Assembly (NCBI GenBank): GCA_001770015.1
Contig: MEQB01000023.1
Coordinates: 1 to 63,606, forward strand
Length of the DNA stretch: 63,606 nt
Direction: 5' to 3'
Source: Bdellovibrionales bacterium RIFOXYC1_FULL_37_79
GTDB lineage: Bacteria; Bdellovibrionota; Bacteriovoracia; Bacteriovoracales; Bacteriovoracaceae
The position numbers and the translations under genes are program-made. Shown here one piece after another: positions 10,102 to 46,901 of the stretch; the stretch's first letter is position 1; each line of letters opens with the position of its first letter. The notes under the pieces are model-generated. The model did not search any database and was not told where the DNA came from. It saw only the letters and a program-made list of their open reading frames with translations.

Positions 10102-11257
10102 TTTTACTTACCTCTATAAAAATAACTGAAGCATCGTATACCAAAAAATCATTCTTACAGTTTTTATGTAAATTGAAAAACAACTCATTTAATAACGCTT
10201 TCCCTGTTTGAGAAAAATTATCCCTCAAGAAACACGTCAAGTCATTTTCTTTTACCAATTCTGCAAAATTATTTCTTACCCCCGGAGACAATAACACTAA
10301 TTTTTCCCCTCTTTTAAATGGTATATCCACATGCGCTTTGTCTGCAAACACTTTTTTTAAAGGATAATCGTTTCCAGTAACGATACCCTTCATATTAGAA
10401 ATCAATTCAAATTTTCCAAAAATATAACCCCTGGCTATAAATTTTTTTAGATCAAATTTAACCACAAAAAGTTGAATATCATCAACTTTTTTGCCAAAAC
10501 CAAGTTCCCCCAGTTCCGACTCAATATCACCAATCAAATCCAAAATCACCTGATCATCCAAGTTTTTTTTCTTTTTCAAAACTTCAAAATGTGCCAGGAT
10601 TACGCTTGAAACCACATAAGAAACACTCGTGGTTAACAAAAGCACAAATTCATTTTTATCGGATAAAATATCAAAAAAATCTCCACCGGTTTTTTCTCCC
10701 GCTGAATACTTGCTTAAAATTTCTACCCCTTTCATTTTTTCATTTCTCATCGGGACCACCTGTTCGTGGATATTTTTCACCCTTTGCAATTCAGCCAAAG
10801 TATTACCAACCAGCCCTTCCAACTGTTTACCCACATTTTTCAAATGACTGACATTTTCACCATTTGCTTGGCGTTTAAGCAAGTTTCTGAAAAACGGAAC
10901 ATAAAACTCAACCTCGAAATTGGTATCAATCCAACCGGCCACCGCAGGGTTTTCAATCAGGATTTTTTTAGTGGCAAATAAATCCTCCTCATTCAACGTA
11001 CTGGAATTAAATACCAGATAAATCTCCTCGTTCTCATTCACCTTTAAATTGGAAATTATATTTTGAGTAAAATCTTCATCAAACATTTCAATCAAAAAGA
11101 TCTTATTGAGAAGTTTAAAATATTTTTCCAATTGATCCAATTGGTTACCCGGAATAAACACAAATTCCATTGCAATATCAAAAAAATCATCGCATAGCTT
11201 GGTGAAATAATAATCCACTGATTCAGAATGTCTTATTGTGATAATTTTGCTCATCAT
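10082..11257 (-). CDS. Degenerate SpoIIE/RsbU-type phosphatase-like protein
   Basis: The 391-residue cytoplasmic protein has an N-terminal part of about 170 residues with no recognised family. It is followed by a region like the PP2C/SpoIIE fold: VEILSKYSAGEKTGGDFFD (near residues 175-193) matches the RsbU/SpoIIE motif ending GGDFYD. The second metal-binding motif, normally GDVxGKG, reads TTSVSYVV, so an essential Asp and the glycines are missing. It may bind a partner rather than dephosphorylate. AGGA precedes two adjacent ATG codons, either of which could start. It lies in one unit with the acidic membrane protein upstream and the secreted protein downstream. Confidence 0.72.
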   Translation of the reverse strand: MMSKIITIRHSESVDYYFTKLCDDFFDIAMEFVFIPGNQLDQLEKYFKLLNKIFLIEMFDEDFTQNIISNLKVNENEEIYLVFNSSTLNEEDLFATKKILIENPAVAGWIDTNFEVEFYVPFFRNLLKRQANGENVSHLKNVGKQLEGLVGNTLAELQRVKNIHEQVVPMRNEKMKGVEILSKYSAGEKTGGDFFDILSDKNEFVLLLTTSVSYVVSSVILAHFEVLKKKKNLDDQVILDLIGDIESELGELGFGKKVDDIQLFVVKFDLKKFIARGYIFGKFELISNMKGIVTGNDYPLKKVFADKAHVDIPFKRGEKLVLLSPGVRNNFAELVKENDLTCFLRDNFSQTGKALLNELFFNLHKNCKNDFLVYDASVIFIEVSKNAIFQV

Positions 11258-11277
11258 TTTTTCCTAATTATTCCCAA

Positions 11278-13441: not shown

Positions 13442-16122
13442 TTGTTTTTTTTAAAGTTCTTGAATTTCTTCTTGAACTTTTTAGGAGAGGATCTACCGGC
13501 TTTATAAGCCTCACTTGTTTGTTTTCCTCCCCGGGAAAATGGTTTTCCGACTGATTTTTCTCCGGTTTTATATGAAGAATTTCCCACTCCCTCACGAGCC
13601 TTTTCGCGAGGTCTGGAAGTAGGTCTCCGGGTAAATCTACGACGTTTAAAACAATTTTCGCAGATAGAAAATCGTGAATCCTCTTCCAACTGTTTCCCAC
13701 AACTTGAACAAAGCGGTATAATTTTATCAGACAAAAGAAGGTTTAACTTTTCTATGGCCATAGACTTATTGTGAATCAACTCATTCATGTCATAAACAAA
13801 GTGATGATCCTTAAAATGTCTTGATAACCATTGATAAAGCTCCACACACATAATGGCCCTTTCCAAATAATCAATGTCATCACTATTAGAGTCAATGAGA
13901 CCGAATACGATCGAATTACCGTAGGTAAAATTGGTTAATATCCATGAAAAATATTGGACATGTTCAATAATATTCAAATCCACCGGTGCGGTGGTAAAAC
14001 CAAATTTTTCCGCAGTAGTTAACCGTTTTTCCTTGTCAACATCTTCCACCATTTCTGCCAGCTCGATCATTTCCTTAAGTTCCACACAATAAAATGGTTT
14101 ATTAAAAGTCATATTATTAAACAAATGAAGAAATTCAGTAATGGTTAAAAGGGGAAGTGAATTCTTGGAAAGAGCGGTATTTACCTGCTCAAAAATATCA
14201 AGATCGGGACCGACCATGCATTTATCTTTTTGAGGCAAATCGTAAACCATTGCCTCTTTTATTTCATTAATCCCGTTTTCTTCGCGGGTTAAGCAGGTCA
14301 CATAGCCAATAGGGAAGCGTCCATATCTTCCGGCCCGGCCGGATATTTGTTTTATTTCGCTTTTGGTAATTTTGTATTCTTTTGAATCAATATATTTAGC
14401 CAGCGTCGAAAAAACAATTCGCCTGATCGGCAAGTTCATACCCATTGCGATAGCATCGGTGGCGACTATTATGTCAGTTTCGCCGTGGTCAAATTTTCTT
14501 GCCTGCTCTCTTCTAACCTCCGGCCCTAGCCTCCCATACACAACAGAGACTTTAAACCCCATTTTTTCCAGGTCAGATTTAAACTTAAGCGCATTTCTTC
14601 TGGAAAAAACAATAAGGGCATCCCCTTTTTCCATCTCTCCAACTCGAATTGACCGCTCTTCTACCAATAACTCTGTCATCCTCTCATATTTTTTGACGGA
14701 AAGTTCATCTCCACATAATTTGGCAATTTCCTTCACTCTTTCATAGGCAGAATGATCACCGCAAACATGAACTTCCTTGGCATTGATGTTAACCAAGGCC
14801 CGAGTCCAGGCCCAGCCTCTTTGGGAATCAGAAATCATCTGGATTTCATCAATAACCGCACACTCAAACCTCTCTTCAAAACGGGCCATTTCAATCGTCG
14901 AAGAATAATGTGTCGAGTTTTTTACTGTGATACATTCTTCACCAGTCAAAAGAGTGGTACCAACCCCTTTGGCATTCATAGTATCAAATAATTCAGCCGC
15001 TAAAAGACGCAGAGGTGCCAGGTAACAACCGTTACTGGCCTTACACAATTCATTGATTGCATTATAGGTTTTCCCGGAGTTCGTAGGCCCCATATGATAA
15101 ATAATTTTTCTATTGAATTGTCTGGCTTTGGAAAAAACCCAAAACTCACCTAGATATTCTTTTAATATGGAAGCCGAAATGTCTTTTCTTTTGAGCATTA
15201 AAACCGTTTTAACCAGCTTATTTAATTCCCTCTCGAGATATTGCTCGTCCTTCCATAAATTAGTGGCGAGTCTTTTATAAAAACGGTCGAATTCCACCAC
15301 ATCTAGTTTCAAACCTTGTTTGGTGAGTATATCGAAAAAAAACTTTTCCAAAGTAGGGATATATTTGAGGGTAAATTCACTTGGATATTGAAAATGCTCC
15401 CTTACATGTTGTTTCACCTGGGTTTCAAGTTTATTAACGACACTTCTTTTAAGTTTATACCTTATGGAAAAAAATAATTTATCCAGTTCTTTTTGCTGAG
15501 CCTGGTATATATTCGACACTTTTTCAATAGAATCAAAATTGATTTCTTGAATTTTAATTATTGAGTTGTCTATGACTTCAATACATTTATCATAAACTTG
15601 ATTTCTGATATTATTCCTAAAATCCAGCAAGCATTTAGAACATTGACACTCCAATTTATGTGGAGTTAATTGACCAAGATTTTGACTCATCAATATGTTT
15701 TGACAGTCATGGTGTTTTATTATTTTTTCATTTCCCCAATGCTCAAAAACATTAATATAATCTCCAAGCACATCCTCTTGAAGCACTCCATCGTGGGAAA
15801 AATAATAACTATCGTGTTCGGGAAAAAGACAGTCGTCCATAAAACAAATTTCTAAAACAATTTCTTTTTGGACAAAATTTTGAAAAGAACCAAATTCCTT
15901 ATCAAAAAGATCAACTAAATATGGATGCGTATCAAATATTTTCTTTAATTTTGACTGAATTGTTTCTAAAAAACTTAAAATCTTTTTAGAGGTTTCAACA
16001 TTTCTTATAAATTCATCTTCCTCTGAAAGATTATTAATTTTTATAAACGTTTTTCGTTCCAATTCCAAAAACTCTGAAATTTTTGCATAATCAACAAGAG
16101 ATGGGACTAGCGAATTAACCAA
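13435..16122 (-). CDS. SUV3-like RNA helicase with zinc-binding motifs
   Basis: The 895-residue protein has a superfamily 2 helicase core of SUV3 type: motif I GPTNSGKT (345-352), motif Ia APLRLLAAE, motif II DEIQ with a following MISD, motif V ATDAIAMGMNL and motif VI QISGRAGR. SUV3 unwinds RNA in the mitochondrial degradosome. Bacterial relatives are known but poorly studied. The 340-residue N-terminal extension carries HHDC and CQCSKC (137-164), a possible zinc site. The C-terminal part has a C-x2-C...C-x2-C ribbon (LCSSCG to CENC) and a strongly basic Lys/Arg/Gly tail likely to bind RNA. The start is TTG at 16122 with AAAGGTG upstream. Confidence 0.88.
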   Translation of the reverse strand: MVNSLVPSLVDYAKISEFLELERKTFIKINNLSEEDEFIRNVETSKKILSFLETIQSKLKKIFDTHPYLVDLFDKEFGSFQNFVQKEIVLEICFMDDCLFPEHDSYYFSHDGVLQEDVLGDYINVFEHWGNEKIIKHHDCQNILMSQNLGQLTPHKLECQCSKCLLDFRNNIRNQVYDKCIEVIDNSIIKIQEINFDSIEKVSNIYQAQQKELDKLFFSIRYKLKRSVVNKLETQVKQHVREHFQYPSEFTLKYIPTLEKFFFDILTKQGLKLDVVEFDRFYKRLATNLWKDEQYLERELNKLVKTVLMLKRKDISASILKEYLGEFWVFSKARQFNRKIIYHMGPTNSGKTYNAINELCKASNGCYLAPLRLLAAELFDTMNAKGVGTTLLTGEECITVKNSTHYSSTIEMARFEERFECAVIDEIQMISDSQRGWAWTRALVNINAKEVHVCGDHSAYERVKEIAKLCGDELSVKKYERMTELLVEERSIRVGEMEKGDALIVFSRRNALKFKSDLEKMGFKVSVVYGRLGPEVRREQARKFDHGETDIIVATDAIAMGMNLPIRRIVFSTLAKYIDSKEYKITKSEIKQISGRAGRYGRFPIGYVTCLTREENGINEIKEAMVYDLPQKDKCMVGPDLDIFEQVNTALSKNSLPLLTITEFLHLFNNMTFNKPFYCVELKEMIELAEMVEDVDKEKRLTTAEKFGFTTAPVDLNIIEHVQYFSWILTNFTYGNSIVFGLIDSNSDDIDYLERAIMCVELYQWLSRHFKDHHFVYDMNELIHNKSMAIEKLNLLLSDKIIPLCSSCGKQLEEDSRFSICENCFKRRRFTRRPTSRPREKAREGVGNSSYKTGEKSVGKPFSRGGKQTSEAYKAGRSSPKKFKKKFKNFKKNNQ

Positions 16123-16247
16123 ATTTGTACACCTTTGTTCTTAAATGGTCGGGCCAAATGATCCATAAAAAAAATACCTACTACGAGCCTATGGAAAACA
16201 TATTATAATATAACATATCTGCAGTACATGAAAATTGGAGTAATATT

Positions 16248-16619
16248 ATGACGCCTTTTAAAAGAGGACGTGTCCGAAGCAAGTTTAAAACTAAAATTAA
16301 TATTAAAAGTAAGGAATTTGAGTTAAAAGATTGCATCACCAGCGATGTCAGTTTAAACGGACTATATGTCATTTCTGAAGAAAAACCTTTGATCAATACT
16401 CTGTGCACTATCAACCTGATCCTTGATAATGGCATCCAAAAACCTATTTCTATTGAATTAAAAGGAAAAGTTGCCCGAATGGGAAAAGATGGGTTTGCAC
16501 TAACTTTTACCGAAATGGATTCTGACGCTTTTATGCATTTAAAAAATATTATCCAGTATAATACAGATTCTCCAGAGGATTTCTTTCAAGAATGTAAAAA
16601 AAGAATCGGTTATAAATGA
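16248..16619 (+). CDS. PilZ domain protein
   Basis: A single-domain 123-residue protein. The N terminus has the cyclic-di-GMP-binding Arg cluster (RGRVRSKFKTK) and about 30 residues later the DVSLNG motif (canonical D/NxSxxG), followed by beta strands ending in LKGKVARMGKDGFALTFTEM. It is probably a cyclic-di-GMP receptor. The canonical motif is RxxxR; here the spacing RVRSK is slightly altered, so affinity is uncertain. It diverges from the helicase gene across a 125-base gap and is transcribed alone. Confidence 0.85.
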   Translation: MTPFKRGRVRSKFKTKINIKSKEFELKDCITSDVSLNGLYVISEEKPLINTLCTINLILDNGIQKPISIELKGKVARMGKDGFALTFTEMDSDAFMHLKNIIQYNTDSPEDFFQECKKRIGYK

Positions 16620-16621
16620 AA

Positions 16622-16649
16622 AAGGGAATCCTTTATGAGGGATTCCCTT
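16622..16649 (-). terminator. Rho-independent terminator
   Basis: A 10-base perfect stem (AAGGGAATCC 16622-16631 with GGATTCCCTT 16640-16649) has an 8-base loop. On the minus strand it is followed by TTTCATTT, and it begins 22 bases beyond the stop of the gene ending at 16671. On the plus strand the tail is TTGCTT, so termination of the PilZ transcript would be weaker. Confidence 0.75.
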
Positions 16650-16670
16650 GCTTAGATCAGATTGAATATT

Positions 16671-17492
16671 CTACCAATGATTGCCAAATCTTCTTTCAAG
16701 AACCACAATCACACTGTCAATTTTGATATTTCCATTCAAAAGCACTTGCCAGACACCGTCGGGAGAATTGGAATCCATCAGAGTGTTTTCCAAGGTGACT
16801 CGATCAAAGGTATGAGGCGCATTGTTATTATAATTGACTGGGTTACCATTGATTATCTCGGGATATGATCTGTGACCGTCAATGAACAATGCTGCGGTTC
16901 CTCTTCCAAACTGGCTTTTGGCCATCAGGATGACTCTTTTTATTTTATGTTCTCGTAAATTAATATAAGGATGTACTCTTAGAATTTCCTGTTTCAATCT
17001 TATGATATTATCTCCACTAAATTCTGTACCAAAGAAGTCAAGACGGATCCTCTCGACAGGATCTGGACCAAAACCTCTTTCCAGCAGAAGCACCATCCTT
17101 TTAATCTTAACCACTCCTCTTAAATATACTTCCCACTCTCCTCGTGAACCATCATTAATATTAAGACTGATATGTTCATAAGTCATGGGGCGATCGATAG
17201 CAAAATCCATTGGATTTCCGGCAATCCTTTCCACATAAGACCTTTCATTTCCAACTTGCAAGTAAGCTTCGCCCATTCCTTGTCGTGATTTGGCCACCAA
17301 ATTCACTCCTTTTAAATCAAAACGAGAAGGGTCAAATCCTGGATTATATCTCCTGGCCAGTTGTTTAAGATTTAACACAGCTGAACCTTGGAATACTTGA
17401 TCATTCATTTCAATAATAATTCGCTCTTGTGCAAACAATGATACCGTCAATGTCATCAGGGTAAAAATTGCTAAAAGTCTCAGTTTCCTCAT
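16671..17492 (-). CDS. Secreted protein with tandemly duplicated beta-rich domain
   Basis: The 273-residue protein has a signal peptide (LRLLAIFTLMTLTVSLFA) and two copies of one domain of about 115 residues. Copy 1 begins ERIIIEMNDQVFQG and ends VLLLERGFG. Copy 2 begins ERIRLDFFGTEFSG and ends VIVVLERRFG. Both contain a LKQ helix, an AKS motif, a RSY...GNP segment and a W-V-L strand near the end. The family is not recognised. An ATG at 17534 is possible, but the ATG at 17492 has AGGAGG 6 bases upstream and gives a clean signal peptide. The gene stands alone with its own terminator. Confidence 0.82.
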   Translation of the reverse strand: MRKLRLLAIFTLMTLTVSLFAQERIIIEMNDQVFQGSAVLNLKQLARRYNPGFDPSRFDLKGVNLVAKSRQGMGEAYLQVGNERSYVERIAGNPMDFAIDRPMTYEHISLNINDGSRGEWEVYLRGVVKIKRMVLLLERGFGPDPVERIRLDFFGTEFSGDNIIRLKQEILRVHPYINLREHKIKRVILMAKSQFGRGTAALFIDGHRSYPEIINGNPVNYNNNAPHTFDRVTLENTLMDSNSPDGVWQVLLNGNIKIDSVIVVLERRFGNHW

Positions 17493-17768
17493 AAATTTCC
17501 TCCTATACCGGTTTGAAATATTAACCCAAATCACTTTTTTAAAAACGTCCTGTTACAAAAAAAATGTGATATTTTTAACCGAGCAATTTTTAGGCCAATA
17601 AAAGGTACTAAAAGCACTGGATTGGTGCTTTGCGTGATATCAAAGCGGCTCCAATTAACGCTTCGTGTGGACATTTTTTGCTCCCGTATTTTGATGTCAG
17701 TTTTTTTTGTTCAGAAATCTAAAAATTCTGCCGAGCCATTTAACGCACCTACGCAACCAAGGATAATA

Positions 17769-18452
17769 ATGCAAAACGTTAAACTAATATCCGTTTTTTT
17801 GTTTTTGTTAATGCACATAAACTCTGCCAATTCATTTTATCTGGGCGGACAAATCTCAGTCCAAAATCTCATTTTAAAACAAGATAATTTCTCTCTCACA
17901 GACTTTAATCTCGAGATGAATGAAACCCAAACGATCATTAATTTTAATGAGGCACTTACTGCCAACCAATCCGCCAAATCCTTTAGCTTGGATTGCCAAC
18001 AAGAAGCTCCTGTCGCTGATTTGGATGTCATCGGTATCATTCAAAGATGTACCAATAACGGCAAGATCACGGCAGACGAAGTTATCGTCACCGAAACCAA
18101 GGAAAGACTAAACGACTTTAAGACCAATCATGAACCAATCGCATTTATTTTTTCCAGGGCCATCTTTCAATCCATGCAAGAATTTTCTACAAGCGAAACT
18201 ACCATTATCTCTGATATAGAGCTGATTATTGTGAAAAACAAATTTGATCTTGAGCTGATAGTATTTAACGTTAAACCCAAGATTAAAGGTGAAATATATA
18301 TTAGCGATAAAACCATCAGGATAAAAATCATATCGGCCAGGGTTTCCGTCCTAAGTATCAAGGCTAAACTATTAGCAGAAATCAAAAAGATGGAAGATAA
18401 ATATCCACTCAAGGTTACCGATGATGTAATTGAGGTTACTATCAAAAACTAG
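17769..18452 (+). CDS. Secreted hypothetical protein
   Basis: A 227-residue exported protein with signal peptide VKLISVFLFLLMHINSANS. The mature part is beta-rich with two cysteines (SLDCQQEA and IQRCTN) that could form one disulfide. No family is recognised. The open frame extends back to 17622, but the ATG at 17769 is preceded by AAGGA and starts a normal signal peptide. Its TAG stop shares the palindrome CTAG with the stop of the convergent peptidase gene. About 275 bases separate it from the divergent duplicated-domain gene and must hold both promoters. Confidence 0.75.
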   Translation: MQNVKLISVFLFLLMHINSANSFYLGGQISVQNLILKQDNFSLTDFNLEMNETQTIINFNEALTANQSAKSFSLDCQQEAPVADLDVIGIIQRCTNNGKITADEVIVTETKERLNDFKTNHEPIAFIFSRAIFQSMQEFSTSETTIISDIELIIVKNKFDLELIVFNVKPKIKGEIYISDKTIRIKIISARVSVLSIKAKLLAEIKKMEDKYPLKVTDDVIEVTIKN

Positions 18453-20476
18453 GCCAGCCCCGCCCTTTTTAAAAGGGCCTTGATCTCGGGGTCTCTGCCT
18501 CTAAAATTTTTGTATAGGATAGCGGGATGTTCACTGCCACCTTTGGATAAAATTTCTTTGCGAAACTTCATGGAGATATTTTTATTGAATATGCCATTTT
18601 CTAAAAAATATTCAAAAGCATCAGCATCCAACACTTCTGCCCATTTATAGCTATAGTAACCCGCCGAATATCCACCACTAAAAATATGATTAAATGCTGT
18701 CGACATACAGGTACCCGGAACTTCTGGAAATAGTCTCGTCTTATTCATAATGTTCTTTTCAAATTTTTCAACCTCCACCTGGGAGCCTGGGGCATTCGCA
18801 TGCCATCCCATATCGAGCATTCCAAAGGAAAGTTGGCGCAAGGTATTTCGTCCCTCATGAAAATTTGAACTGTCTTTAATTTTACGAATATGTTCAAGCG
18901 GAATTTTCTCACCAGTTTCATAATGTCTTGCAAATAAATCCAGACACTCCTTTTCATAGGCCCAATTTTCCATGATCTGGCTGGGAAGCTCGACAAAATC
19001 CCAATAGACGTTAGTTCCTGAAATAAGATGATAAGTGCACTTGGACAAGAGTCCGTGAAGCGCATGACCAAACTCATGAAATAATGTCTTCACCTCGTTA
19101 AAAGTTATCAGAGAAGGTTTACTCTCTGTCGGTTTCGTAAAATTACACACAATCGAAATATGTGGACGTTCATCTTTTCCATCGACTACAGACTGGGATT
19201 TAAAACTGGTCATCCATGCACCGGATTTTTTTCCTTTTCTTGGGAAAAAATCTGCATAAAAAATTCCAATCAAACTTCCATCCTCATCAGTCACTTCATA
19301 GGTGGTCACATCCTCATGGTACACTGGAATATTATCAACTTTATTAAACTTTATAGAATAAAGTTTACCAGCGACTTCAAACACTCCCTTAACCACATCC
19401 TCCAATTTAAAGAAAGGTCTCAGTATTTCATCATCAATATTAAACTTTTCCAGCTTAAGTTTTTCGGCGTAAAATCCACTATCCCAAGCTTCGAGGATAT
19501 TAGGCCCACCGCTTGTTTTGGCATATTCAGTGAGCTCTTTCATCTCTTTTTTAGCAACCGGCATGGCACACTCTAAAAGTTCATTTAAAAAATCATTCAC
19601 TCGATTGAAATTTTGGGCCATTCGTTCTTCGAGTACAAAATCGGCGTGAGTTTTATACCCCAACAAATTCGCCTTTTGGTGACGAAGTTCCACGATTCTT
19701 TTCACCACTTCACAGTTATCATCCTTGTTTCCGTGAATACCTCGGCTGGCATGAGCAGTATAAAGCTTCTTTCGAAGCTCTCTATTTTCCGCATATTGTA
19801 AAAAAGGAATCAAGCTGGGCATTTGTAAGGTAAAGATCCATCCCTCCTTATTTCGATCTTTCGCCACCATTCGAGCGGCTTCCTTAGAAGAATCAGGAAG
19901 ACCTTTTAAATCTTTTTCGTTGGTGATATGAAGTTCAAAATTATTTGTTTCATTTAAAACATGTTCGCTAAATTCAACTCCTAGCTTGGATAATTCCGAC
20001 GAAATAGATCTAAATTTATCTTTATCTGCAGCATTTAAATTGGCTCCATTTCTTACAAAGCTTTTATAAACTATTTCAAGAAGCCTAAGCTGTTCCTTAT
20101 TTAAATTCAAATCATCTTTTATTTGATAAACAGTCTTCACCTTGTGAAAAAGTCCCTCATCCAAAGTGATATCATTTTCGTGAGAAGTCACTCGAGGGAA
20201 AAAATCCTTAGCAATTTTTTGCATTTCTTCGCTGGCTTCGGCATGAAAAAGATTAGAAAAAGTGGAGATCACTGGCTCAAGCAGTTTTTCAGACTTATCC
20301 ATCTCACCAATTACGTTTTCAAAATTAGCTGGAGAGGGATTGTTTTTAATTTGTTCAATCACCGATTTTCGCTTAGCTATCTGTCCTTCCAGGCCCTCCA
20401 TAAAATGTTCATTTTTAATTTTATCAAAAGGAACAACACCGTGCACTGTTTCAAAGTGACTTAAAAAAGGATTCAT
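18449..20476 (-). CDS. M3 family oligopeptidase (oligopeptidase A-like)
   Basis: The 675-residue zinc metallopeptidase matches the PrlC/Dcp branch of family M3 over its full length. The active site HEFGHALHG supplies two zinc ligands and the catalytic Glu; the third ligand, a Glu, lies in the following helix near ELPSQIMENWA. Such enzymes degrade short peptides, including cleaved signal peptides, in the cytoplasm, and no signal peptide is present. The N terminus MNPFLSHFET aligns with the usual start of the family, so the ATG at 20476 with GGGAG upstream is preferred over one at 20509. It diverges from the mannosyltransferase gene. Confidence 0.93.
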   Translation of the reverse strand: MNPFLSHFETVHGVVPFDKIKNEHFMEGLEGQIAKRKSVIEQIKNNPSPANFENVIGEMDKSEKLLEPVISTFSNLFHAEASEEMQKIAKDFFPRVTSHENDITLDEGLFHKVKTVYQIKDDLNLNKEQLRLLEIVYKSFVRNGANLNAADKDKFRSISSELSKLGVEFSEHVLNETNNFELHITNEKDLKGLPDSSKEAARMVAKDRNKEGWIFTLQMPSLIPFLQYAENRELRKKLYTAHASRGIHGNKDDNCEVVKRIVELRHQKANLLGYKTHADFVLEERMAQNFNRVNDFLNELLECAMPVAKKEMKELTEYAKTSGGPNILEAWDSGFYAEKLKLEKFNIDDEILRPFFKLEDVVKGVFEVAGKLYSIKFNKVDNIPVYHEDVTTYEVTDEDGSLIGIFYADFFPRKGKKSGAWMTSFKSQSVVDGKDERPHISIVCNFTKPTESKPSLITFNEVKTLFHEFGHALHGLLSKCTYHLISGTNVYWDFVELPSQIMENWAYEKECLDLFARHYETGEKIPLEHIRKIKDSSNFHEGRNTLRQLSFGMLDMGWHANAPGSQVEVEKFEKNIMNKTRLFPEVPGTCMSTAFNHIFSGGYSAGYYSYKWAEVLDADAFEYFLENGIFNKNISMKFRKEILSKGGSEHPAILYKNFRGRDPEIKALLKRAGLA

Positions 20477-20528
20477 TTTATCATCTCCCAACTCAAAATA
20501 TTTCTGCATTTAATACCTTATTTTTGAG

Positions 20529-20534
20529 TATAAT
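20529..20534 (+). promoter_or_regulatory. Candidate -10 box for the mannosyltransferase gene
   Basis: TATAAT lies 30 bases before the ATG at 20564, followed by AAGGA as ribosome site. No good -35 hexamer is visible 17 bases upstream. Confidence 0.35.
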
Positions 20535-20563
20535 GAAACTATCAATTTAATAAGGAATGATAA

Positions 20564-22357
20564 ATGATAAAGCAAAATTCCGCTGAAACAGGATTTTGGA
20601 ATACCTATCGAACGAATGAATGGATATTCCTGGCCATCATTATTGCCATTGGTCTCCTTCTACGCTGGATGAACCTTACTGATCGTCCTCTCCATCACGA
20701 TGAATCCCTGCACGCCATTTATGGCCTGTACATTTATGATGATCCGCAAAATGGTTTTTATAAATACAATGCCTTACTCCATGGCCCTCTCCTTTACAAC
20801 ATTCTACCATTTATTTACGACCTCTTTGGAACTGGAAAATGGGCGGTACGCTTTTTAACCGCTTTCCTCGGTACTGGTTTTATGTTTGCTCCCTTTATTT
20901 TTAGAAAATATTTTCATAAAAATACATTGCTTTTTTTAGTCACTTGCATTGCTCTCTCACCATCGCTGGTATTTTGGTCCAGATTTCTAAGACACGATTA
21001 TCTGGCCATTACTTCCATGCTCTTGGTTTTATGGGGGATCTTTTGTGTAAAAGAAAAATATGCTTTTTTTCCAATTATCATTGGCATGGTTTTACAATTT
21101 ACAATTAAAGAAAATGCATTCGTGACCACCTCACTTCTGCTAGGATATGTAATCTTTGAATCCTTGTTTAAAAAAATATTTCTTAAAAAAACCCGAACAT
21201 CAATTCAAGTCATCTTTGAAAAAATTTCCGAATCTAAAATCAGTTTTTTATTCGCCTTAATCCTGGCAGTTTTTATATACACCCTTCTTTATTCAGCCGG
21301 TTTCAAATATGCTCAAGGAATTCTAGATGGGCTCTATCGTGAAAGCCTTGGTTATTGGCTTAACCAACATCAAATGGAAAGAATTGTAGGACCTTTTATC
21401 TATCATATTTTAGTTTTAAGCTGGTATGAACTCTATTTTATCATTTTCTCCCTCATCCACATGGTACATTTTTATTATAAAGCAAAAGGGCCATATCTTT
21501 ATGCCCTACTGTCCGCTTTGACCATTGCCGCCATTTTGCATATTAGTATAGGTCAAAATCTTAACCAGATTAATTTTCTATACAAAGTATTAAAAATTAA
21601 AATACCCATTGATTTTTACCCCTTTATTATCATTATCGTGCACGCTTTTAATGTGACTATTTTTTATCTTAAACGAAATGATACCAAAAAAGCTTTTTGG
21701 GGATACCTGTTCTTTGGAACTTTATTTGCCTATAGTTTTGTAGGTGAAAAAGTTCCATGGCTGGCCAGTTATCCACTACTCACGGGAATTATTTTTCTGG
21801 CCATTTATCTTGAAGAAAATCTGATTTTGGACAATATCTTGAATTTAAAAAGCTGGAAAAAAATTCCCATCAATGGCCTGGTGCTAATGATGATTATTCT
21901 TCTCTTTACTCTTAAAACCAGCATATCTACTAATTTTGCCAGAAGCGGATCAAGTACAGAGCTTGTAAGTCAAGTGCACACCGAAAAAGCTTTTGAGAAC
22001 ATCCTTTTTAAAATAAAGGATAAAATGCTTCATCCTACGCAAGAAAATCCGGTTTCCATACTTGCATATAATATGTCATGGCCGACCTCCTGGTATTTTT
22101 TCAGGCTTCCCAACTATTATTTCATTTCAGATGGTAGCAATCTATCCTCTTATGATTACGTTTTGGCTGATCCCCATAACCCCATCAATGACCCCAATAT
22201 TTATCGTACTCACCAAAAAATCAATCTGGCCTTTCGTTCTTGGTGGGTTCCCCCTTACGATACCCTCACCTGGAGTGAATTTTTTTCTTATCTATTCACC
22301 CATAATCCCACAAGAGGAGTGGGATCTAGCTTCTGCGATTTATATATCAGGAAGTAA
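20564..22357 (+). CDS. Integral membrane GT-C glycosyltransferase, TIGR03663 family
   Basis: The 597-residue protein has about 12 hydrophobic segments and the N-terminal signature of predicted membrane mannosyltransferases (COG4745/TIGR03663): RWMNLTDRPLHHDES in the first extracytoplasmic loop, with the acidic residue used in GT-C catalysis, then GPLLYNILPF and SRFLRHDYLA. It would transfer a sugar, perhaps mannose, from a polyprenyl-phosphate donor to a periplasmic acceptor. The polyprenyl-P-mannose synthase gene 6 kb away could supply the donor. The last nine or ten codons and the stop lie within the 48-bp direct repeat (22325-22372). Confidence 0.87.
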   Translation: MIKQNSAETGFWNTYRTNEWIFLAIIIAIGLLLRWMNLTDRPLHHDESLHAIYGLYIYDDPQNGFYKYNALLHGPLLYNILPFIYDLFGTGKWAVRFLTAFLGTGFMFAPFIFRKYFHKNTLLFLVTCIALSPSLVFWSRFLRHDYLAITSMLLVLWGIFCVKEKYAFFPIIIGMVLQFTIKENAFVTTSLLLGYVIFESLFKKIFLKKTRTSIQVIFEKISESKISFLFALILAVFIYTLLYSAGFKYAQGILDGLYRESLGYWLNQHQMERIVGPFIYHILVLSWYELYFIIFSLIHMVHFYYKAKGPYLYALLSALTIAAILHISIGQNLNQINFLYKVLKIKIPIDFYPFIIIIVHAFNVTIFYLKRNDTKKAFWGYLFFGTLFAYSFVGEKVPWLASYPLLTGIIFLAIYLEENLILDNILNLKSWKKIPINGLVLMMIILLFTLKTSISTNFARSGSSTELVSQVHTEKAFENILFKIKDKMLHPTQENPVSILAYNMSWPTSWYFFRLPNYYFISDGSNLSSYDYVLADPHNPINDPNIYRTHQKINLAFRSWWVPPYDTLTWSEFFSYLFTHNPTRGVGSSFCDLYIRK

Positions 22358-22372
22358 TTTACTTAACTAAAA
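22325..22372 (+). repeat. 48-bp direct repeat, left copy
   Basis: A perfect 48-base match to 25218-25265, starting TCTAGCTTCTGCG and ending TTAACTAAAA. Similarity continues for 10 more bases at 8 of 10. This copy contains the last codons and stop of the mannosyltransferase gene. Past the stop it also contains a second, diverged copy of the 3' end of the convergent gene 25252-25974 (LVK-stop on the minus strand). It may be an attachment-site-like or recombination-derived duplication. Confidence 0.95.
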
Positions 22373-22435
22373 TATAGAAATTAAACTTTCATAATGACAT
22401 AATAAATCTTGTTAGTTTCAATCAAGAGACCTTTT

Positions 22436-23314
22436 TCAATCACATTTTTTTAATTTAACAAACTGAAGACCAAATTGTCCGAAAGCGGTGGGATCGCCCA
22501 GCCATTCAAGCATTTCTTTAATCAACTTCAATTGATTAATCTTACTCCCAATCATCCTGTTAATTATTTCTGAAACTAGCAAAAAAAATTGATAGTAATT
22601 ACGTAAATCGGTTTGAGTTTGAGAAGCTACTTCCATTTTTTCAGAACATAATGGTGTAAATCCATAGATTGAAGCCTTCCTATGTATTTTTTCCGCCGAA
22701 GTCCGCAAGCCTCCTTTTGCCTTTTGTAACTGCCCTAAAACCGCAAACATTTCGGTTAAAGAAGGAATATTGGGCGACCACTTCAAATAGGAATCATAAG
22801 CTTCCATAATAACAATATTGCCATCATCCTTAAGATAGTTACCAATTGATTTAATCATCGCTCCAAATTGATTTACATGCTGGGCGACTAAGCGAAGATG
22901 AATATTGTCATATTGCTGACTGCAAGATCCTATCTGTTTTTCAATTTCAGCGGTTACATTTTTATAATTGTTTTTTCCAGCAAACAGATAACTAAAATTT
23001 AGAACAACTTCTTTTATTTCCGCTTGTGGAAAATAAGGCCGAATACCACCAATAACATGATCAATACCAAAACCTATTTCCAGGACTTGAATCTTTTTAT
23101 TATAATCACAGTATCTGTTAAGAAATGACATCTCCTTAAGACGGGCCATGTCAAATTGCAGATCGAGCAATGCCTTCCAAAGTGCTTCTGGAGTCGCCAA
23201 TTTAAGTACTAAAAGAATATCCTTGAGGATCATACCTGGAGAAATAGAAAGGATTTTCTGAACCTCGTTTATCAATGGACTATTTTCACTAAACAAACTA
23301 ATATCCGCTTCCAA
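22436..23314 (-). CDS. Methyltransferase-like protein, degenerate SAM-binding motif
   Basis: The 292-residue protein is paralogous to the two proteins encoded next to it. Motif I reads VLEIGFGIDH, losing the usual GxGxG glycines. It keeps the strand-4 region IHLRLVAQHVNQF (compare FAKLLVQHLKKP in the second copy) and shares the C-terminal ending LEWLGDPTAFGQFGLQF. An extra N-terminal region of about 85 residues precedes the fold. SAM binding may be impaired. It diverges from the second methyltransferase gene across a 262-base gap. No clear ribosome site was identified at 23314, so the start is tentative. Confidence 0.75.
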   Translation of the reverse strand: MEADISLFSENSPLINEVQKILSISPGMILKDILLVLKLATPEALWKALLDLQFDMARLKEMSFLNRYCDYNKKIQVLEIGFGIDHVIGGIRPYFPQAEIKEVVLNFSYLFAGKNNYKNVTAEIEKQIGSCSQQYDNIHLRLVAQHVNQFGAMIKSIGNYLKDDGNIVIMEAYDSYLKWSPNIPSLTEMFAVLGQLQKAKGGLRTSAEKIHRKASIYGFTPLCSEKMEVASQTQTDLRNYYQFFLLVSEIINRMIGSKINQLKLIKEMLEWLGDPTAFGQFGLQFVKLKKCD

Positions 23315-23576
23315 CCTGCCTCCAGATTGTTCAATTGATTAAAACTTGAACACATAAATTACAAAATTTAAATAAATTTTAATTGTATTAACATTTATCT
23401 TATTAATTTTATTAATGTTTGAAATAGCTACTTTTTGAATATTATTGGCATTTGTCATGCACATCTGATCGGTAATTGAAGAAAAAATGTTAAAAAATTA
23501 TGGTTTTTTGATCATGTACTCATCACAATTAGTACTTTTTGAACACCATAACCATTTAATAACAAAGGAACTAACA

Positions 23577-24419
23577 ATGCGTACCATCCCAATCAAAATA
23601 CAATTTATTGATAAAAGTGTTCAATTTGATTTAGTAAAGGCCCAAAATTCCACCGATCATTGGTTTCGCCATCTTGAAGTGCAAAATATCATCACTGAAT
23701 TTATTGATAGGCAATTTCTTTATACGGATCCCGACTGGACCAATGCCACGAGTGTATTAGATTTAGGTTGTGGCCATGGTTTTTATCTTAATCAACTAGC
23801 ACAAAAGTTCAACGAAAAAAAATATTTGGGAGTTGATATAGATCAAAAAGCAATTGAGTATGCTCAAAATAATGCAGAAAAAAACGTCAAATTTTGCTGT
23901 CAAGATTTGTACCATCTCAATTTAAATGAAAAATTCGATGTATGCTTTGCTAAACTTTTAGTTCAACATCTTAAAAAACCCCAAGCTTTTTTGGAAAAGA
24001 TGTCTGAGCAATTAAATGAAAATGGCGTTGTCTACTTGATAGACGGCCATGATGATTTTAAAAGATTTTTCCCCCAATTACCAAGTATTACCAGTATCTA
24101 TCAACGTTTGGGAGAGAAATACAAACAGATTGGGGCCAATCGAAAGCTAATTTATGACATACCCTTGCTTGCCTCAAATTGTGGGTTTGACATTGAGTGT
24201 GAAAACATCGTCGCGGGAAGCAGCGGCCGGAATTTTTCCCACGAAACACTCTACGAAATGTTGCTAATCAATTGCATCATCATTCAACAAACTTTTGGTG
24301 TCGATGTGGACTTGGCCCAAGTACAAACCGAATTACATTCATGGTACCAACATCCTCAAAAATTTGGAGGTATTGGCTTACATTTCCTAAAGCTTAGAAA
24401 AACAAGAAAGCTTCATTAA
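23577..24419 (+). CDS. Class I SAM-dependent methyltransferase
   Basis: The 280-residue protein has a good Rossmann methyltransferase core: motif I VLDLGCGHGF, acidic motif II LGVDID, then CCQDLYHL and FAKLLVQHL. The C-terminal third is family-specific and ends HSWYQHPQKFGGIGLHF. The substrate is unknown. The frame is open back to 23487, but the ATG at 23577 has AAGGA 8 bases upstream and no signal or domain lies before it. It is followed by the third methyltransferase gene after 13 bases, so the two form an operon inside the repeat-flanked islet. Confidence 0.85.
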   Translation: MRTIPIKIQFIDKSVQFDLVKAQNSTDHWFRHLEVQNIITEFIDRQFLYTDPDWTNATSVLDLGCGHGFYLNQLAQKFNEKKYLGVDIDQKAIEYAQNNAEKNVKFCCQDLYHLNLNEKFDVCFAKLLVQHLKKPQAFLEKMSEQLNENGVVYLIDGHDDFKRFFPQLPSITSIYQRLGEKYKQIGANRKLIYDIPLLASNCGFDIECENIVAGSSGRNFSHETLYEMLLINCIIIQQTFGVDVDLAQVQTELHSWYQHPQKFGGIGLHFLKLRKTRKLH

Positions 24420-24432
24420 AAAGGAACTGTGT

Positions 24433-25206
24433 ATGACCACAATCAACCAACTTTGGGAAAAACAACTTCAACTGCAGAATTTGTTGACATTAGACACACA
24501 TATCCAGCTTATTGCCAACGTTATTAATAATAGTAACCCCCAAAACATACTGGACGTAGGGTGTGCCCAGGGTGACCTCCTTGAGAAACTATCTCAAAGA
24601 TTTCCCCAGCATCACTTTGTTGGCATTGATCTTAATGAGGAATTTATTATTGAAGCTCAGAGAAAAAACAAAAAACTCATCTTTATCAAGAGTGATATTA
24701 ACACTTTTCCAAAGTCTACCGATAAAAAATTTGACTGCATAATTTTTCGTTTAGTTATTCAACATCTTGATAATTACCAAAATCTTTTTAATATCTTAAA
24801 AAATATTTGCAATCCATCTTGCCAAATTATCGTGATCGATGCCTGTGACCGTTACGAGCTTTTTCATCCAAGAATACCGTTATTTGAATCAGTACTCCAC
24901 CAGTTTCGATTACACCAGGGACAAGAGTCAAATACCTTGCAAAAGCTAAAAACATTTATTCAAAGTGACAAAACAGCAAAGATTAAAATCATACAGGATA
25001 TAAACAAACCAGTTTCCAACCTTCGTAACAAAAATATTTTATACAAGGTTCTCATGAACAGCGTGAGGATTTTAAAACAATATTATTCCCTAGATCTCAA
25101 CTTGAATAATTTGCAATGTGAACTAGAATATTGGAAAAATAACATTTCCTCCGAGGGGACCCTTGGAATGTTATTTCTTCAATTTGAATTCTCAAAAACT
25201 GATTGA
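24433..25206 (+). CDS. Class I SAM-dependent methyltransferase
   Basis: The 257-residue third paralogue has motif I ILDVGCAQGD, motif II VGIDLN, IKSDINTF and IIFRLVIQHLDN. Its C terminus (ECELEYW region through LGMLFLQF) matches the other two. The middle glycine of GxGxG is Ala, which is common. The substrate is unknown. AAGGAA precedes the ATG. The stop lies 12 bases before the right-hand copy of the direct repeat, so the gene sits at the very edge of the islet. Confidence 0.83.
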   Translation: MTTINQLWEKQLQLQNLLTLDTHIQLIANVINNSNPQNILDVGCAQGDLLEKLSQRFPQHHFVGIDLNEEFIIEAQRKNKKLIFIKSDINTFPKSTDKKFDCIIFRLVIQHLDNYQNLFNILKNICNPSCQIIVIDACDRYELFHPRIPLFESVLHQFRLHQGQESNTLQKLKTFIQSDKTAKIKIIQDINKPVSNLRNKNILYKVLMNSVRILKQYYSLDLNLNNLQCELEYWKNNISSEGTLGMLFLQFEFSKTD

Positions 25207-25217
25207 ATTAGGTTTAC

Positions 25218-25265
25218 TCTAGCTTCTGCGATTTATATATCAGGAAGTAATTTACTTAACTAAAA
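25218..25265 (+). repeat. 48-bp direct repeat, right copy
   Basis: Identical to 22325-22372. Here the right half is the genuine 3' end of the minus-strand gene 25252-25974. The left half is a non-coding duplicate of the last codons of the mannosyltransferase gene, disconnected from the rest of that gene. Confidence 0.95.
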
Positions 25266-25974
25266 GATAAAAATTGATATTCTTTTTTTCTACGACATTA
25301 CTTTTTTGATAACCCTCATCCAAAGAAATCTTTTGATCCCCTTTTTTCAAATCTCTAACCACCGAACCAATCTCAAAAGGGGAATCACTATCAACAATAA
25401 CACTGCTACTTAATTGACTGGTTTGATTTTCATTCCCACTTTTGACAAAAATTTCAATCTGATATTTTCCATTTCCCAGCTCTTTACAATTAATCTCCAT
25501 TTCTTCATTATCCATTTGCAGTTTCCCACGAAGTCCTTGGGTCAAAAGCATTTCCATAACCGACGTGCTTTCTTCTTTGGAAGTGCTACTTTCCAGTTTA
25601 GTTTTTCTACCCAGCTTATATTCCTGTGCAGAGGGCCCCCCCATTGCTTTTTTTATCAGCTGAATTTTACAAGTTTTGTTTTCTTTTATCAGCATCAGGT
25701 TGGGGGTGGAATCTCCATAAACATGCAAATTTTTATATTTGGCGTATAAATATTTTTCAACCAATTCCCTGCGATGATCGGAGAGTTCAATTTCTAAACA
25801 GTGCTTACTCTCCCGATAAAACACCTGGTCATGAGACAAAAGAATCTGACTCAAATACTGATGTACCTCTGTCAGTTTGATATGATTATCAAAGCAAAAC
25901 CCATACAAGGCCGCAGACCCTTTTGGAAACCACAGCATGAGCAAGACCAAAAAAATTCCGTTGATACTTCTCAT
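25252..25974 (-). CDS. Secreted hypothetical protein
   Basis: A 240-residue protein with signal peptide GIFLVLLMLWFPKGSAA. The mature part has four cysteines and a Ser/Thr/Glu-rich middle, followed by a beta-rich C-terminal half. No family is recognised. It starts 1 base downstream of the DtxR-like gene, so it is co-transcribed with that regulator and may answer to the same metal signal. Its 3' end lies within the right copy of the 48-bp repeat, and a diverged copy of the same end is found 2.9 kb away at 22352-22382. Confidence 0.75.
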   Translation of the reverse strand: MRSINGIFLVLLMLWFPKGSAALYGFCFDNHIKLTEVHQYLSQILLSHDQVFYRESKHCLEIELSDHRRELVEKYLYAKYKNLHVYGDSTPNLMLIKENKTCKIQLIKKAMGGPSAQEYKLGRKTKLESSTSKEESTSVMEMLLTQGLRGKLQMDNEEMEINCKELGNGKYQIEIFVKSGNENQTSQLSSSVIVDSDSPFEIGSVVRDLKKGDQKISLDEGYQKSNVVEKKNINFYLLVK

Positions 25975-25975
25975 A

Positions 25976-26497
25976 TTAATTATTTTTTTTCACTTGATAA
26001 CCGTCAAATTTCTGCTGATCAATAAATTCGGTAATATTTTTGAAATCACATAGATCCAGGGAAGTTTGCACTAATTCGTTTTTAGAAATATCACAGTTTT
26101 CTGATCCTTTTTGACAACAAGTGTGTTTTTTAATGTAATTAAAAAATTTTTCCCGAGCTTCCTTGCTTAGTAAATGTTCCATCAAACATGCATCCCGCAG
26201 CGCCACATCTTTACTTACTCCGACAAAATCTTTTAAAAAATAAAAAAGTAAGGATCTGGAAGTCAAAATTTGATGGACTTCCTCATGACCTTTGGGACTT
26301 AAGATGACAAATTTTGATCCCTCCTCTTCTTCGATCAAGGATTTACTCTTAAGATTATTAAGGGAAGTCGAAACACTCCCTTTGGTCAAACCAAGTTCTT
26401 TGGCAATGTCTGTCACTCGGGCATACCCCTTGGTTTCCTTTAATTTATGAATGGTCAAAAGATAGTGAACCATGGAATGAGACAATTCTTGCGACAT
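25976..26497 (-). CDS. DtxR/MntR-type metal-dependent repressor
   Basis: The 173-residue protein has the winged-helix domain of the DtxR/MntR family (residues 5-65: YLLTIHKLKETKGYARVTDIAKELG, split here by known helices, then KGSVSTSLNNLKSKSLIEEE). A dimerisation region follows with RDACLMEHLLS, matching the family's DxCxxEH metal-site motif. The C-terminal part adds further Cys (HTCCQKGSENC). It is the MntR-like short form without an SH3 domain. It would sense Fe(II) or Mn(II) and repress uptake genes. A perfect palindrome upstream (26547-26562) is the likely autoregulatory operator. The gene is followed by a secreted-protein gene after 1 base. Confidence 0.85.
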   Translation of the reverse strand: MSQELSHSMVHYLLTIHKLKETKGYARVTDIAKELGLTKGSVSTSLNNLKSKSLIEEEEGSKFVILSPKGHEEVHQILTSRSLLFYFLKDFVGVSKDVALRDACLMEHLLSKEAREKFFNYIKKHTCCQKGSENCDISKNELVQTSLDLCDFKNITEFIDQQKFDGYQVKKNN

Positions 26498-26546
26498 GCT
26501 AAAACCCCTAAAAACAAATAATCTTTATAAAATAATAACAACTTTT

Positions 26547-26562
26547 GTTTGATCTATCAAAC
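26547..26562. promoter_or_regulatory. Perfect palindrome, candidate operator for the DtxR/MntR-like repressor
   Basis: GTTTGATCTATCAAAC is a perfect inverted repeat of two 7-base arms around CT. It lies 49 bases upstream of the repressor start and 152 bases upstream of the divergent gene at 26714. Size and symmetry suit a dimeric winged-helix repressor. No second copy was noticed in the window. Confidence 0.5.
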
Positions 26563-26713
26563 GACAATAATTTTTTGCACAAAAATTGACCTAATATATG
26601 GTCATCGTTAACTTAACATGTTGATTTTTATAAATATAAATTATTATTCCCTTAATATATTTCTATCAAGTATCCCCATGTTATAATTTATTTGTAAGGA
26701 TACTGGGGTGACA

Positions 26714-28291
26714 ATGAAATACCTAATAACACTGATTATTATGTCTTTGGTTTTTAACATATCAAGTGTGCAAGCCGATGGCACAGCACCTGATCTAGTG
26801 ATTGTCCCTGACGGGAACGTGGCGCCTGGAGTAGTGGTTACTGAACCAAACAATCCGGTTTATGACGCCACCAAAGGTTTAACCGACCAAGAATATATGT
26901 TGAAAAGAAATTTTGTTCACCCTGGCTATCAACAAAGAACATATGACGAAGCTTGCAAGGATAACTCCAAATTATGCCGAGGTAGGGAGTTAGATCATAA
27001 ATTTCTAGGCATAGATCCTTCGATGATTACTGCTCTTTCAAAGGCATATGCCCTGGTAGTTGGAGCCATGGATTCCAAGTTAAAAACTAACGTCAAAGAT
27101 GAGAACACCGACGTCAAAAAAGAATACAATGATTATTGTCGTTTTATTGCCGTAGGCACCGAAACTCTTGGAACCGCCATGCAAGTGTTGGAACAAAAAC
27201 ACATAAACGACATGCCTTCGACGGAATCCACCATCCAACAAGATGCACTTTACAAAGCCGCCTTGGCCCACAAATCGCGGGCCAAGACTGCTAAAATCCA
27301 AACCATTGGGTGGGGATCCACCACTGCTTGTTATGCCTTTATGCTTACCAAGGGAGTTACTTTTAAAAGTGTAGGTATCAAACTGGTGGGTGCTGGCCTC
27401 TTGACCGCTTTTTTTAACAACGAAATGAGCGTCTACGATGATGCCTATAACGAGGTAAAACAAATTGCAGACTCTCTACCTCAAAAAGGGGCATGTAATC
27501 CAATTAGTGAAACATCCTGCTATTGTGCCCAGGCTGAAACCAAAAACGATTTAAGATATTGTGTTTCACCGCTTATGAAACAAGTACATGGTGAGCAGGA
27601 TTACGTCGCAACTTGCATAGATGACAAGCTAGAAAGCGATGTTTCATGTAAATGTGAGTTAACTGATACATGTTTTGATAGCAAACTAAAAAAAATAACG
27701 GATGATTTAAAACTGGCGAGTGCCTATAATGGTGAAATATTCAATCCACTAGTTGCCATATCAAAGGGTAATTTAAAAGCTGCCAGCATTGATGGCAATG
27801 CTGGACTTAAACAAGCTGCGACCAGGGCCCAAGATCTGATGAATCAAATTGCCAGAAAATACCCGGTTAATTTAAACAATCCTTTAAGCGAAAAAGAGGA
27901 AAAAGAATCACTGGCCCTGGAAAAAGCAGGTATTCCTAAAAATCTATCTGATTTATTTGCTCAAGCAGCCTCCCCCGGCGATACTGCCAATTATATTTCC
28001 AAATTCAATCAATCGGATCGTAAAAAATCATCCACCCCTGAAAAAGATCTGGAATATGTCTCCGAGGATAAAAATAATTTGGCCAAGAAAAATAATCCTG
28101 GTAACGACCCCTATGATTTTTTAAAAAAATTTGGCGATAAATCAAAAGAAGCAAAACCCCGGGATAACTACCTCTATTTTTCCCAAAAAGCTGAAAAGGA
28201 AGCTCAGATTAATCACAACAAGTCTGATGATATCTGGCGCATTATTTCAAGAAGATATCAACTGGCAAAAGATAATCTTTTAGATCGATAA
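26714..28291 (+). CDS. Secreted Cys-containing hypothetical protein
   Basis: The 525-residue exported protein has signal peptide YLITLIIMSLVFNISSVQA. A hydrophobic Gly-rich region (VGIKLVGAGLLTAFF, near residue 225) could be a membrane segment. It is followed by a cluster of some ten cysteines between about residues 255 and 325 (CNPISETSCYC, CKCELTDTC), suggesting a disulfide-knotted periplasmic domain. The rest is charged and probably helical. No family is recognised. The ATG at 26714 with GGGGTGA upstream is chosen over a GTG at 26708. The DCC-family thiol protein gene directly downstream may be functionally linked to the cysteines. Confidence 0.78.
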   Translation: MKYLITLIIMSLVFNISSVQADGTAPDLVIVPDGNVAPGVVVTEPNNPVYDATKGLTDQEYMLKRNFVHPGYQQRTYDEACKDNSKLCRGRELDHKFLGIDPSMITALSKAYALVVGAMDSKLKTNVKDENTDVKKEYNDYCRFIAVGTETLGTAMQVLEQKHINDMPSTESTIQQDALYKAALAHKSRAKTAKIQTIGWGSTTACYAFMLTKGVTFKSVGIKLVGAGLLTAFFNNEMSVYDDAYNEVKQIADSLPQKGACNPISETSCYCAQAETKNDLRYCVSPLMKQVHGEQDYVATCIDDKLESDVSCKCELTDTCFDSKLKKITDDLKLASAYNGEIFNPLVAISKGNLKAASIDGNAGLKQAATRAQDLMNQIARKYPVNLNNPLSEKEEKESLALEKAGIPKNLSDLFAQAASPGDTANYISKFNQSDRKKSSTPEKDLEYVSEDKNNLAKKNNPGNDPYDFLKKFGDKSKEAKPRDNYLYFSQKAEKEAQINHNKSDDIWRIISRRYQLAKDNLLDR

Positions 28292-28298
28292 TTATTTT

Positions 28299-28697
28299 AT
28301 GAATACTGAAAATCAATATAATCCCCCCCTGATGCTCTACGATGATGAGTGTCCTCTTTGTAAGAGATTTAAGCAGGCCTTGGATCATATCCCTGGAACA
28401 GATAAAATAAACAAAGTTTCAATTCATGATCAAAATATTTATAGCATTTATCCACATTTAATCCCCCAGGAATGTCATGAAACTCTCCATGTTTTATTGG
28501 AACCTGATAAAATACTCAAGGGACCTGCTGCCATCGAATATCTGATTGGACAATTTCCAGCTGTAGCAAAATTTTGCTGGCTTTATGAATCAAACATGGG
28601 TAAAAAGGCCATAGATTTTTTTTACAAAGCGGCAGACAATTACCGGAAGTCGAAACTTAATCGTTGCGAAACTTGTAAAAAATCCCGATACCTTTAA
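28299..28697 (+). CDS. DCC (DUF393) family thiol-disulfide protein
   Basis: The 132-residue protein opens with LMLYDDECPLCKRF, the DxxCPxC motif of the DUF393 family, thought to have a thioredoxin-like fold. Middle and end fit the family (GPAAIEYLIG; FCWLYESNMGKKAIDFFYKAADNYR). It ends with a second pair RCETCKK. Its biochemical role is not established. It has no signal peptide, so it is cytoplasmic. It lies 7 bases downstream of the Cys-containing secreted-protein gene and 14 bases upstream of the mannose synthase gene. Confidence 0.85.
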   Translation: MNTENQYNPPLMLYDDECPLCKRFKQALDHIPGTDKINKVSIHDQNIYSIYPHLIPQECHETLHVLLEPDKILKGPAAIEYLIGQFPAVAKFCWLYESNMGKKAIDFFYKAADNYRKSKLNRCETCKKSRYL

Positions 28698-28711
28698 GCC
28701 AGGAGAATACG

Positions 28712-29452
28712 TTGCATCCCTACGACAAAAGCTTGATTATCATGCCAACCTTCAATGAAATAGAAAATATTGAGAAAATGATCAATACTATTTTTTCAAT
28801 GTATGAAGGCATTTCCATGCTAATCATCGATGACGGCTCACCAGATGGTACCGCCGATATAGTTAAAAAACTGCAAGCAAGCAAACCCAATCTGCATCTT
28901 TTAGAACGCAAAGGAAAACTCGGTCTGGGAACTGCTTATGTAGCTGGCTTTAAATGGGCCATTAATAAAAAGGAACGTGACTTCCATTACATTCTTGAAA
29001 TGGACTGTGATTTTTCCCATGACCCGAAAGATATTAAAAATTTGATCTCAACTGTTGCAAATGACAAATATGATCTGGCCATCGGATCAAGATATATTGA
29101 CGGAATTAGAATTATTAACTGGCCTTTTAGCCGCCTGCTGATTTCCTACGGCGGTTCAATTTACACCCGGCTTATCACCGGAATGCCCATACTCGATACC
29201 AATGGTGGCTTTAAATGTTTTAAAAGAGAAACCTTGGAGGCCTTGGATTTAAATAATATTATTTCCGCTGGATACTCATTCCAAATCGAACTCAATTACA
29301 AGGTTTACTGCAAAGGATTGAAAATCAAAGAAGTTCCAATTATATTCACGGAAAGAAAAGAAGGTATTTCAAAAATGAGTGGCAATATTATCTTTGAAGC
29401 AATTTTTGCCATCATCAGGCTTCGATTTAGAAAATTTATGGATACGCTTTAG
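28712..29452 (+). CDS. Polyprenyl-phosphate mannose synthase (DPM1-like GT2)
   Basis: The 246-residue family 2 glycosyltransferase has the DPM1-like order of motifs: IIMPTFNEIENIE, IDDGSPDGTADIV, LGTAYVAGFKWA, EMDCDFSHDP and GSRYIDG. It lacks the C-terminal membrane domain of longer relatives. It would move mannose (or another hexose) from GDP-sugar to polyprenyl phosphate on the cytoplasmic face. The start is TTG at 28712 with AGGAGA upstream. A GT-C transferase gene (20564) that could use the product lies in the same window. Confidence 0.9.
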   Translation: MHPYDKSLIIMPTFNEIENIEKMINTIFSMYEGISMLIIDDGSPDGTADIVKKLQASKPNLHLLERKGKLGLGTAYVAGFKWAINKKERDFHYILEMDCDFSHDPKDIKNLISTVANDKYDLAIGSRYIDGIRIINWPFSRLLISYGGSIYTRLITGMPILDTNGGFKCFKRETLEALDLNNIISAGYSFQIELNYKVYCKGLKIKEVPIIFTERKEGISKMSGNIIFEAIFAIIRLRFRKFMDTL

Positions 29453-44879: not shown

Positions 44880-44897
44880 AAAATCAATTATATAAAT

Positions 44898-46878: not shown

Positions 46879-46901
46879 AACTGTACTTTATATCATAGTT
46901 T

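Follow-up and report, generated by a model that had tools for sequence, protein, structure and literature searches.

In Helicobacter pylori, insertion with long target duplication was reported by Nobusato, Uchiyama, Ohashi and Kobayashi (2000, Gene 259:99-108; as cited in PMC1643837, PMC3031569, PMC3154945 and PMC4978471), and the accounts given in these four papers link it there to restriction-modification genes. The target duplications of insertion sequences are short, with 4-10 bp quoted for IS5 and IS1 (PMC3031569). The window analysed here, a stretch of 63,606 bp from the genome of Bdellovibrionales bacterium RIFOXYC1_FULL_37_79 (contig MEQB01000023.1), carries an insert of 2,835 bp (22383-25217) between two copies of a 58-bp direct repeat, which hold the ends of two convergent genes. 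A sequence-only reading of this DNA had stated that no described element of this form was known. Accounts of insertion with long target duplication go back to 2000, and the label "element" implies mobility and goes beyond what the locus supports; we refer to an islet.

The left (22325-22382) and right (25218-25275) copies of the repeat have a unit spacing of 2893 bp and are identical at 56 of 58 positions, the first 48 being exact. The perfect 48-bp match reported earlier (22325-22372 and 25218-25265), followed by 8 identical bases among the next 10, is thus part of a full unit of 58 bp. The sequence-only reading had proposed a genome search for the 48-bp sequence; when the whole 4.36-Mb genome was searched with up to three mismatches, the 58-bp sequence was found at these two positions and at no third place. 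Its ungapped score of 52 compares with a best score of at most 14 in random segment pairs (250x250 bp), and a chance origin is negligible. A repeat scan of the locus revealed no inverted repeat pair at the insert borders.

The left flank is formed by an intact plus-strand gene (20564-22357) encoding an Agl23-like membrane glycosyltransferase (TIGR03663) of 597 aa, and the right flank by an intact minus-strand gene (25252-25974) of 240 aa, which had no match in Pfam or NCBIfam and is a conserved neighbour of Agl23 in the family. As had been recognized from the sequence, the repeat holds the last codons of both convergent genes and leaves both intact: the last 33 bp of the Agl23-like gene lie inside the left copy, and the last 24 bp of the right gene inside the right copy. 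In the single-copy arrangement, the two convergent genes have their stops 1 bp apart.

The empty site was identified by comparing the source genome (G000, 95.8% complete) with G001, a Bdellovibrionales MAG that provides the one other genome for the same-genus comparison, both being draft assemblies. Window positions 16000-22382 align with positions 1578-7958 of L043 (G001:C19), and positions 25218-29451 with 7901-12126, so that the two flanking alignments share exactly 58 bp (L043 7901-7958), which represent a single copy of the repeat; upstream of it G001 has the flank of the left copy, and downstream the flank of the right copy. The Agl23-like protein shows 84% amino acid identity with its G001 counterpart. 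The flanking genes are adjacent in all nine genomes in which both were found, comprising G001 and eight other genera (G022, G020, G033, G031, G023, G017, G008 and G006); the ends of the flanking-gene alignments lie no more than 74 bp apart there, and an insert is absent. Since the flanking genes are joined in G001 and in the eight other genera, the insert is derived in the lineage of the window. The relative with joined flanks and one repeat copy, for which the earlier reading had suggested a search, therefore exists, and the proposed insertion or duplication at a gene-end junction is supported by its single-copy empty site.

At the end of the right gene, G001 has the sequence ATATAGAAATT, which is also that of the left copy, whereas the right copy has AGATAAAAATT; the corresponding peptides are NFYILVK in the left copy, NFYILIK in G001 and NFYLLVK in the working right gene. 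Because the left copy agrees with G001, its 3' part retains the end of this gene in the ancestral form, and both changes occurred in the working right gene. This reverses the sequence-only reading, in which the left copy (FYILVK) had been taken for the diverged version. The two substitutions of the right copy are probably later than the insertion, an earlier date also being possible.

Other differences between the window and G001 have another appearance. G001 carries an extra gene of its own (L043 12143-13000) with FkbM-like methyltransferase features recognized by eye, which is located at another convergent junction, 4 kb off, where the window has no interruption (29452/29454), and no flanking repeats were found at this gene. 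Window regions 44805-49049 and 50039-52490, which are present or different relative to G001, are without flanking repeats as well; the differences between the window and G001 are therefore not all repeat-flanked.

The insert encodes three class I SAM methyltransferases: gene a (22436-23314, minus strand; 292 aa, TTG start; Pfam Methyltransf_23), gene b (23577-24419, plus strand; 280 aa; Pfam Methyltransf_31, 3e-23) and gene c (24433-25206, plus strand; 257 aa; Pfam Methyltransf_31, 4e-16), the last ending 11 bp before the right repeat. The frame of gene b is open from 23487, with a likely ATG start at 23577 and a Shine-Dalgarno-like AAAGGA upstream. The three proteins align over their full length with 19-24% identity, and on this alignment the earlier description of the cargo as three paralogous methyltransferases is right, though they are very diverged. 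In gene a, the glycine motif of the SAM-binding loop is weakened compared to b and c, and the acidic residue that normally follows strand 2 is missing; both features look degenerate, which hints at a putative role of gene a as a non-catalytic partner. Its single-sequence structure model (pLDDT 38.6) was too poor to use, and the sequence matches of the cargo in the PDB were generic methyltransferases only.

Single-protein scans, which detect close relatives only, revealed no close relative of gene b on the contigs of 84,980 species genomes, and none of gene c among viral contigs. Gene b had no match among phage records, and plasmids matched it only in part, through the generic methyltransferase domain. 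For gene c, a search of 369 genomes from the phylum gave no full-length relative beyond the cluster itself. From the absence of relatives in these scans we infer that the cargo was derived from a distant donor. By its tetranucleotide distance the insert ranks at the 65th percentile within the genome, and composition thus gives no foreign mark. No DNA methylase or restriction family was found among the cargo matches of this insert and of the other islets tested, and promoter and terminator scans remained at chance level. A domain search detected no integrase or transposase within the insert, and no integrase adjoins it, in agreement with the statement of the sequence-only reading that no integrase is present; none of the 13 tyrosine-recombinase domain matches of the genome is located on the contig of the window.

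Similar repeat-flanked islets recur in the genome. The recurrence scan covered 1.56 Mb of G000 (36%) and 0.98 Mb of G001, and retained self-scan pairs with at least 90% identity, a length of 30-300 bp, a spacing of 0.25-12 kb and at most one other matching place. It yielded 22 direct versus 2 inverted pairs in G000, and 1 versus 0 in G001. About ten of the 22 direct pairs, as curated by eye, resemble islets; among the others are tandem paralogs, islands at tRNA ends, a copy of IS110, pairs at contig ends and repeats that lie inside an islet. In an early subset of 339 kb aligned between G000 and G001, three of the 23 presence/absence differences were bounded by long direct repeats, and in nearly all the remaining ones repeats were not above chance. 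For two more islets, G000:C3 8504/10167 and G000:C1 149633/151693, a single-copy site was confirmed in G001; that of the latter appears as a 64-bp overlap on G001:C44. Islet C22, which has a 105-bp repeat, had no counterpart in G001, and for islets C21 and C1 186235 partial flanks only were found there. The repeats of the islets measure 48, 58, 65, 71 or 105 bp and are unrelated, no 8-mer being common to more than three of the ten repeats; likewise, no family is common to the cargo of different islets. Five islets, the methyltransferase islet included, are located at convergent gene ends, with stop-to-stop gaps at the empty site of 1, 2, 3 and 9 bp and one gene overlap of 33 bp. Convergent junctions represent 17% of all junctions in a crude gene call, versus five of about ten islets (p about 0.02, with a denominator picked by eye), and we consider this excess as a lead, not as proof.

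Several of the repeat-flanked regions have features of their own. In G000:C3 (L102), nested direct repeats were found at 8504-8608, 8611-8698, 10043-10131 and 10167-10271, where the host duplication (A) lies outside a second pair (B), and B is missing from the part of G001 that was compared; it is as if this cargo had been flanked by an earlier duplication before its arrival at the site. G000:C22 (L184) has a 105-bp repeat (10692-10796 and 17397-17501; 104/105 identical) around 6.6 kb encoding an APH-like kinase and an M14 peptidase, with both convergent gene ends inside the repeat, a geometry as at the methyltransferase islet. In G000:C1 (L100), a HipA-like gene and a small upstream gene are located between 71-bp direct repeats (4366-6837), a possible toxin-antitoxin islet. 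G000:C27 (L194) has perfect 128-bp direct repeats (1107-1234 and 2952-3079) around an IS110-family transposase gene. On G000:C11, two tandem islands lie between copies of an apparent tRNA 3' end (258413-258464, 265998-266049 and 267526-267576), and no integrase family was detected among the cargo genes tested.

We consider it probable that a 2.8-kb fragment with the three methyltransferase genes was inserted once at the convergent junction with duplication of a 58-bp target, and we favour a recombinase-independent capture. We infer that a foreign fragment was joined at the target with 58 nt being used twice. Two routes could lead to this: either two nicks about 58 nt apart would produce long overhangs that are filled in as the fragment is captured, or a replication fork would leave the junction, copy the fragment and re-enter 58 bp upstream by template switching. 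The product is one target copy on each side of the insert, as is observed. Judging from this anatomy, each gene would retain its own end in the adjoining copy and neither would be harmed. With stops 1 bp apart, nearly every insertion free of duplication would be harmful, whereas one that duplicates 58 bp spanning the junction would always be harmless, and in a compact genome insertions with target duplication would be expected to survive preferentially at tight convergent junctions. Since the duplication keeps both gene ends, such a selection filter would account for the position without targeting. Ku (PF02735) was not detected in G000, at its 95.8% completeness, or in G001, which makes classical Ku/LigD end joining unlikely. 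It is conceivable, although we hold it to be rather doubtful, that this lineage possesses an efficient Ku-independent capture route, perhaps with a dedicated enzyme that makes breaks staggered by about 50-100 nt, and that this route has produced dozens of unrelated islets, preferentially at tight convergent ends.

Site-specific integration, in which the repeats would be attL and attR of a tyrosine-recombinase target and the islet would be non-autonomous, either mobilised in trans or deprived of its integrase by loss, seems unlikely. The restoration of gene 3' ends is typical of tyrosine-recombinase integrases, whose domains are encoded elsewhere in this genome, and the tandem islands with tRNA 3'-end repeats (G000:C11 258413/265998/267526) exist beside the islets; however, the lengths of the islet repeats vary without a common motif, the 58-bp site has no further genomic copy, and no cargo gene is common to the islets. 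The lack of a common sequence in the repeats and of a common gene in the cargo argues against one recombinase. A simple attB x attP reaction moreover predicts the ancestral sequence on the side of the right gene, but it was found on the left, which two later substitutions would also explain.

A secondary acquisition, by which the islet and its duplicated flanks would have been imported from a close relative by natural transformation and ordinary homologous recombination within the flanking genes, could account for the spread of the islet, given that long homologous flanks suffice for it. It leaves the first origin of the duplication unexplained, however, the flanks have no local jump in identity to G001 (in an informal look), a donor was not found, and we regard it as improbable. 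An ancestral insert that was lost from G001 would give the same picture at the empty site, as deletion between direct repeats likewise leaves a single copy; but the genes are adjacent, and without insert, in eight further genera, and a sister diverged by 20% that is without the insert, together with repeats differing at two of 58 positions, points to a recent insertion, so that such a loss is very improbable. Hardly any credit can be given to the view that the repeat is a coincidence, arose as an artefact of assembly or belongs to a conserved portion of both genes. It is indeed made of the ordinary ends of both genes, but an exact match over 48 bp far exceeds what chance would give, and the same sequence is single copy in G001. 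A repeat of 58 bp is shorter than common sequencing read lengths, and repeats of this kind recur at other places in the genome for which single-copy sites were confirmed.

The locus provides a clean, outgroup-polarised example of how a compact genome can take up new genes while both neighbours remain unharmed, the gene ends being supplied twice by the copied target. Novelty may lie in the repeated occurrence of islets within one genome, and this recurrence and the bias towards convergent ends are worth following up. Through recurrence, the origin of insertions with long target duplication, an old and little-studied question, becomes testable outside Helicobacter, and without restriction-modification genes, the supposed drivers elsewhere.

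Compared with known systems, the islet resembles an IS insertion in that a duplicated target flanks the insert, but IS elements and composite transposons encode a transposase and are usually bounded by terminal inverted repeats, neither of which is present at this insert. Unlike a product of Ku/LigD end joining, it is found in a genome in which Ku was not detected. Homology-facilitated illegitimate recombination (HFIR) and merodiploid formation in transformation are similar to the capture proposed for it as recombinase-independent uptake of foreign linear DNA, and merodiploidy duplicates host sequence (PMC3240628, PMC3784515); HFIR, however, uses one homologous anchor, and the abstracts of these two papers describe for neither process a clean insert between short exact duplicates. 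Tyrosine-recombinase islands at gene 3' ends share the direct repeats on both sides and the preserved 3' ends of the target, but differ from the islet, which has an integrase-free insert and belongs to a group with repeats varying in length and sequence; the tandem islands at tRNA 3' ends in the same genome form a separate class. The closest likeness is with insertion with long target duplication: a gene block is present in one genome and missing from a relative in which the flanks are joined, long direct repeats derived from the host are single copy at the empty site, the duplication length varies between cases, and no recombinase was found in the insert. The described cases concern mostly restriction-modification genes, a link that is frequent but not obligatory, and none are found here. 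In contrast to those of Helicobacter pylori, the present case involves three class I methyltransferases of a non-DNA type in Bdellovibrionales, with assorted genes in the other islets and an over-representation of convergent ends. The islet fits an insertion with long target duplication in another phylum and with a different cargo.
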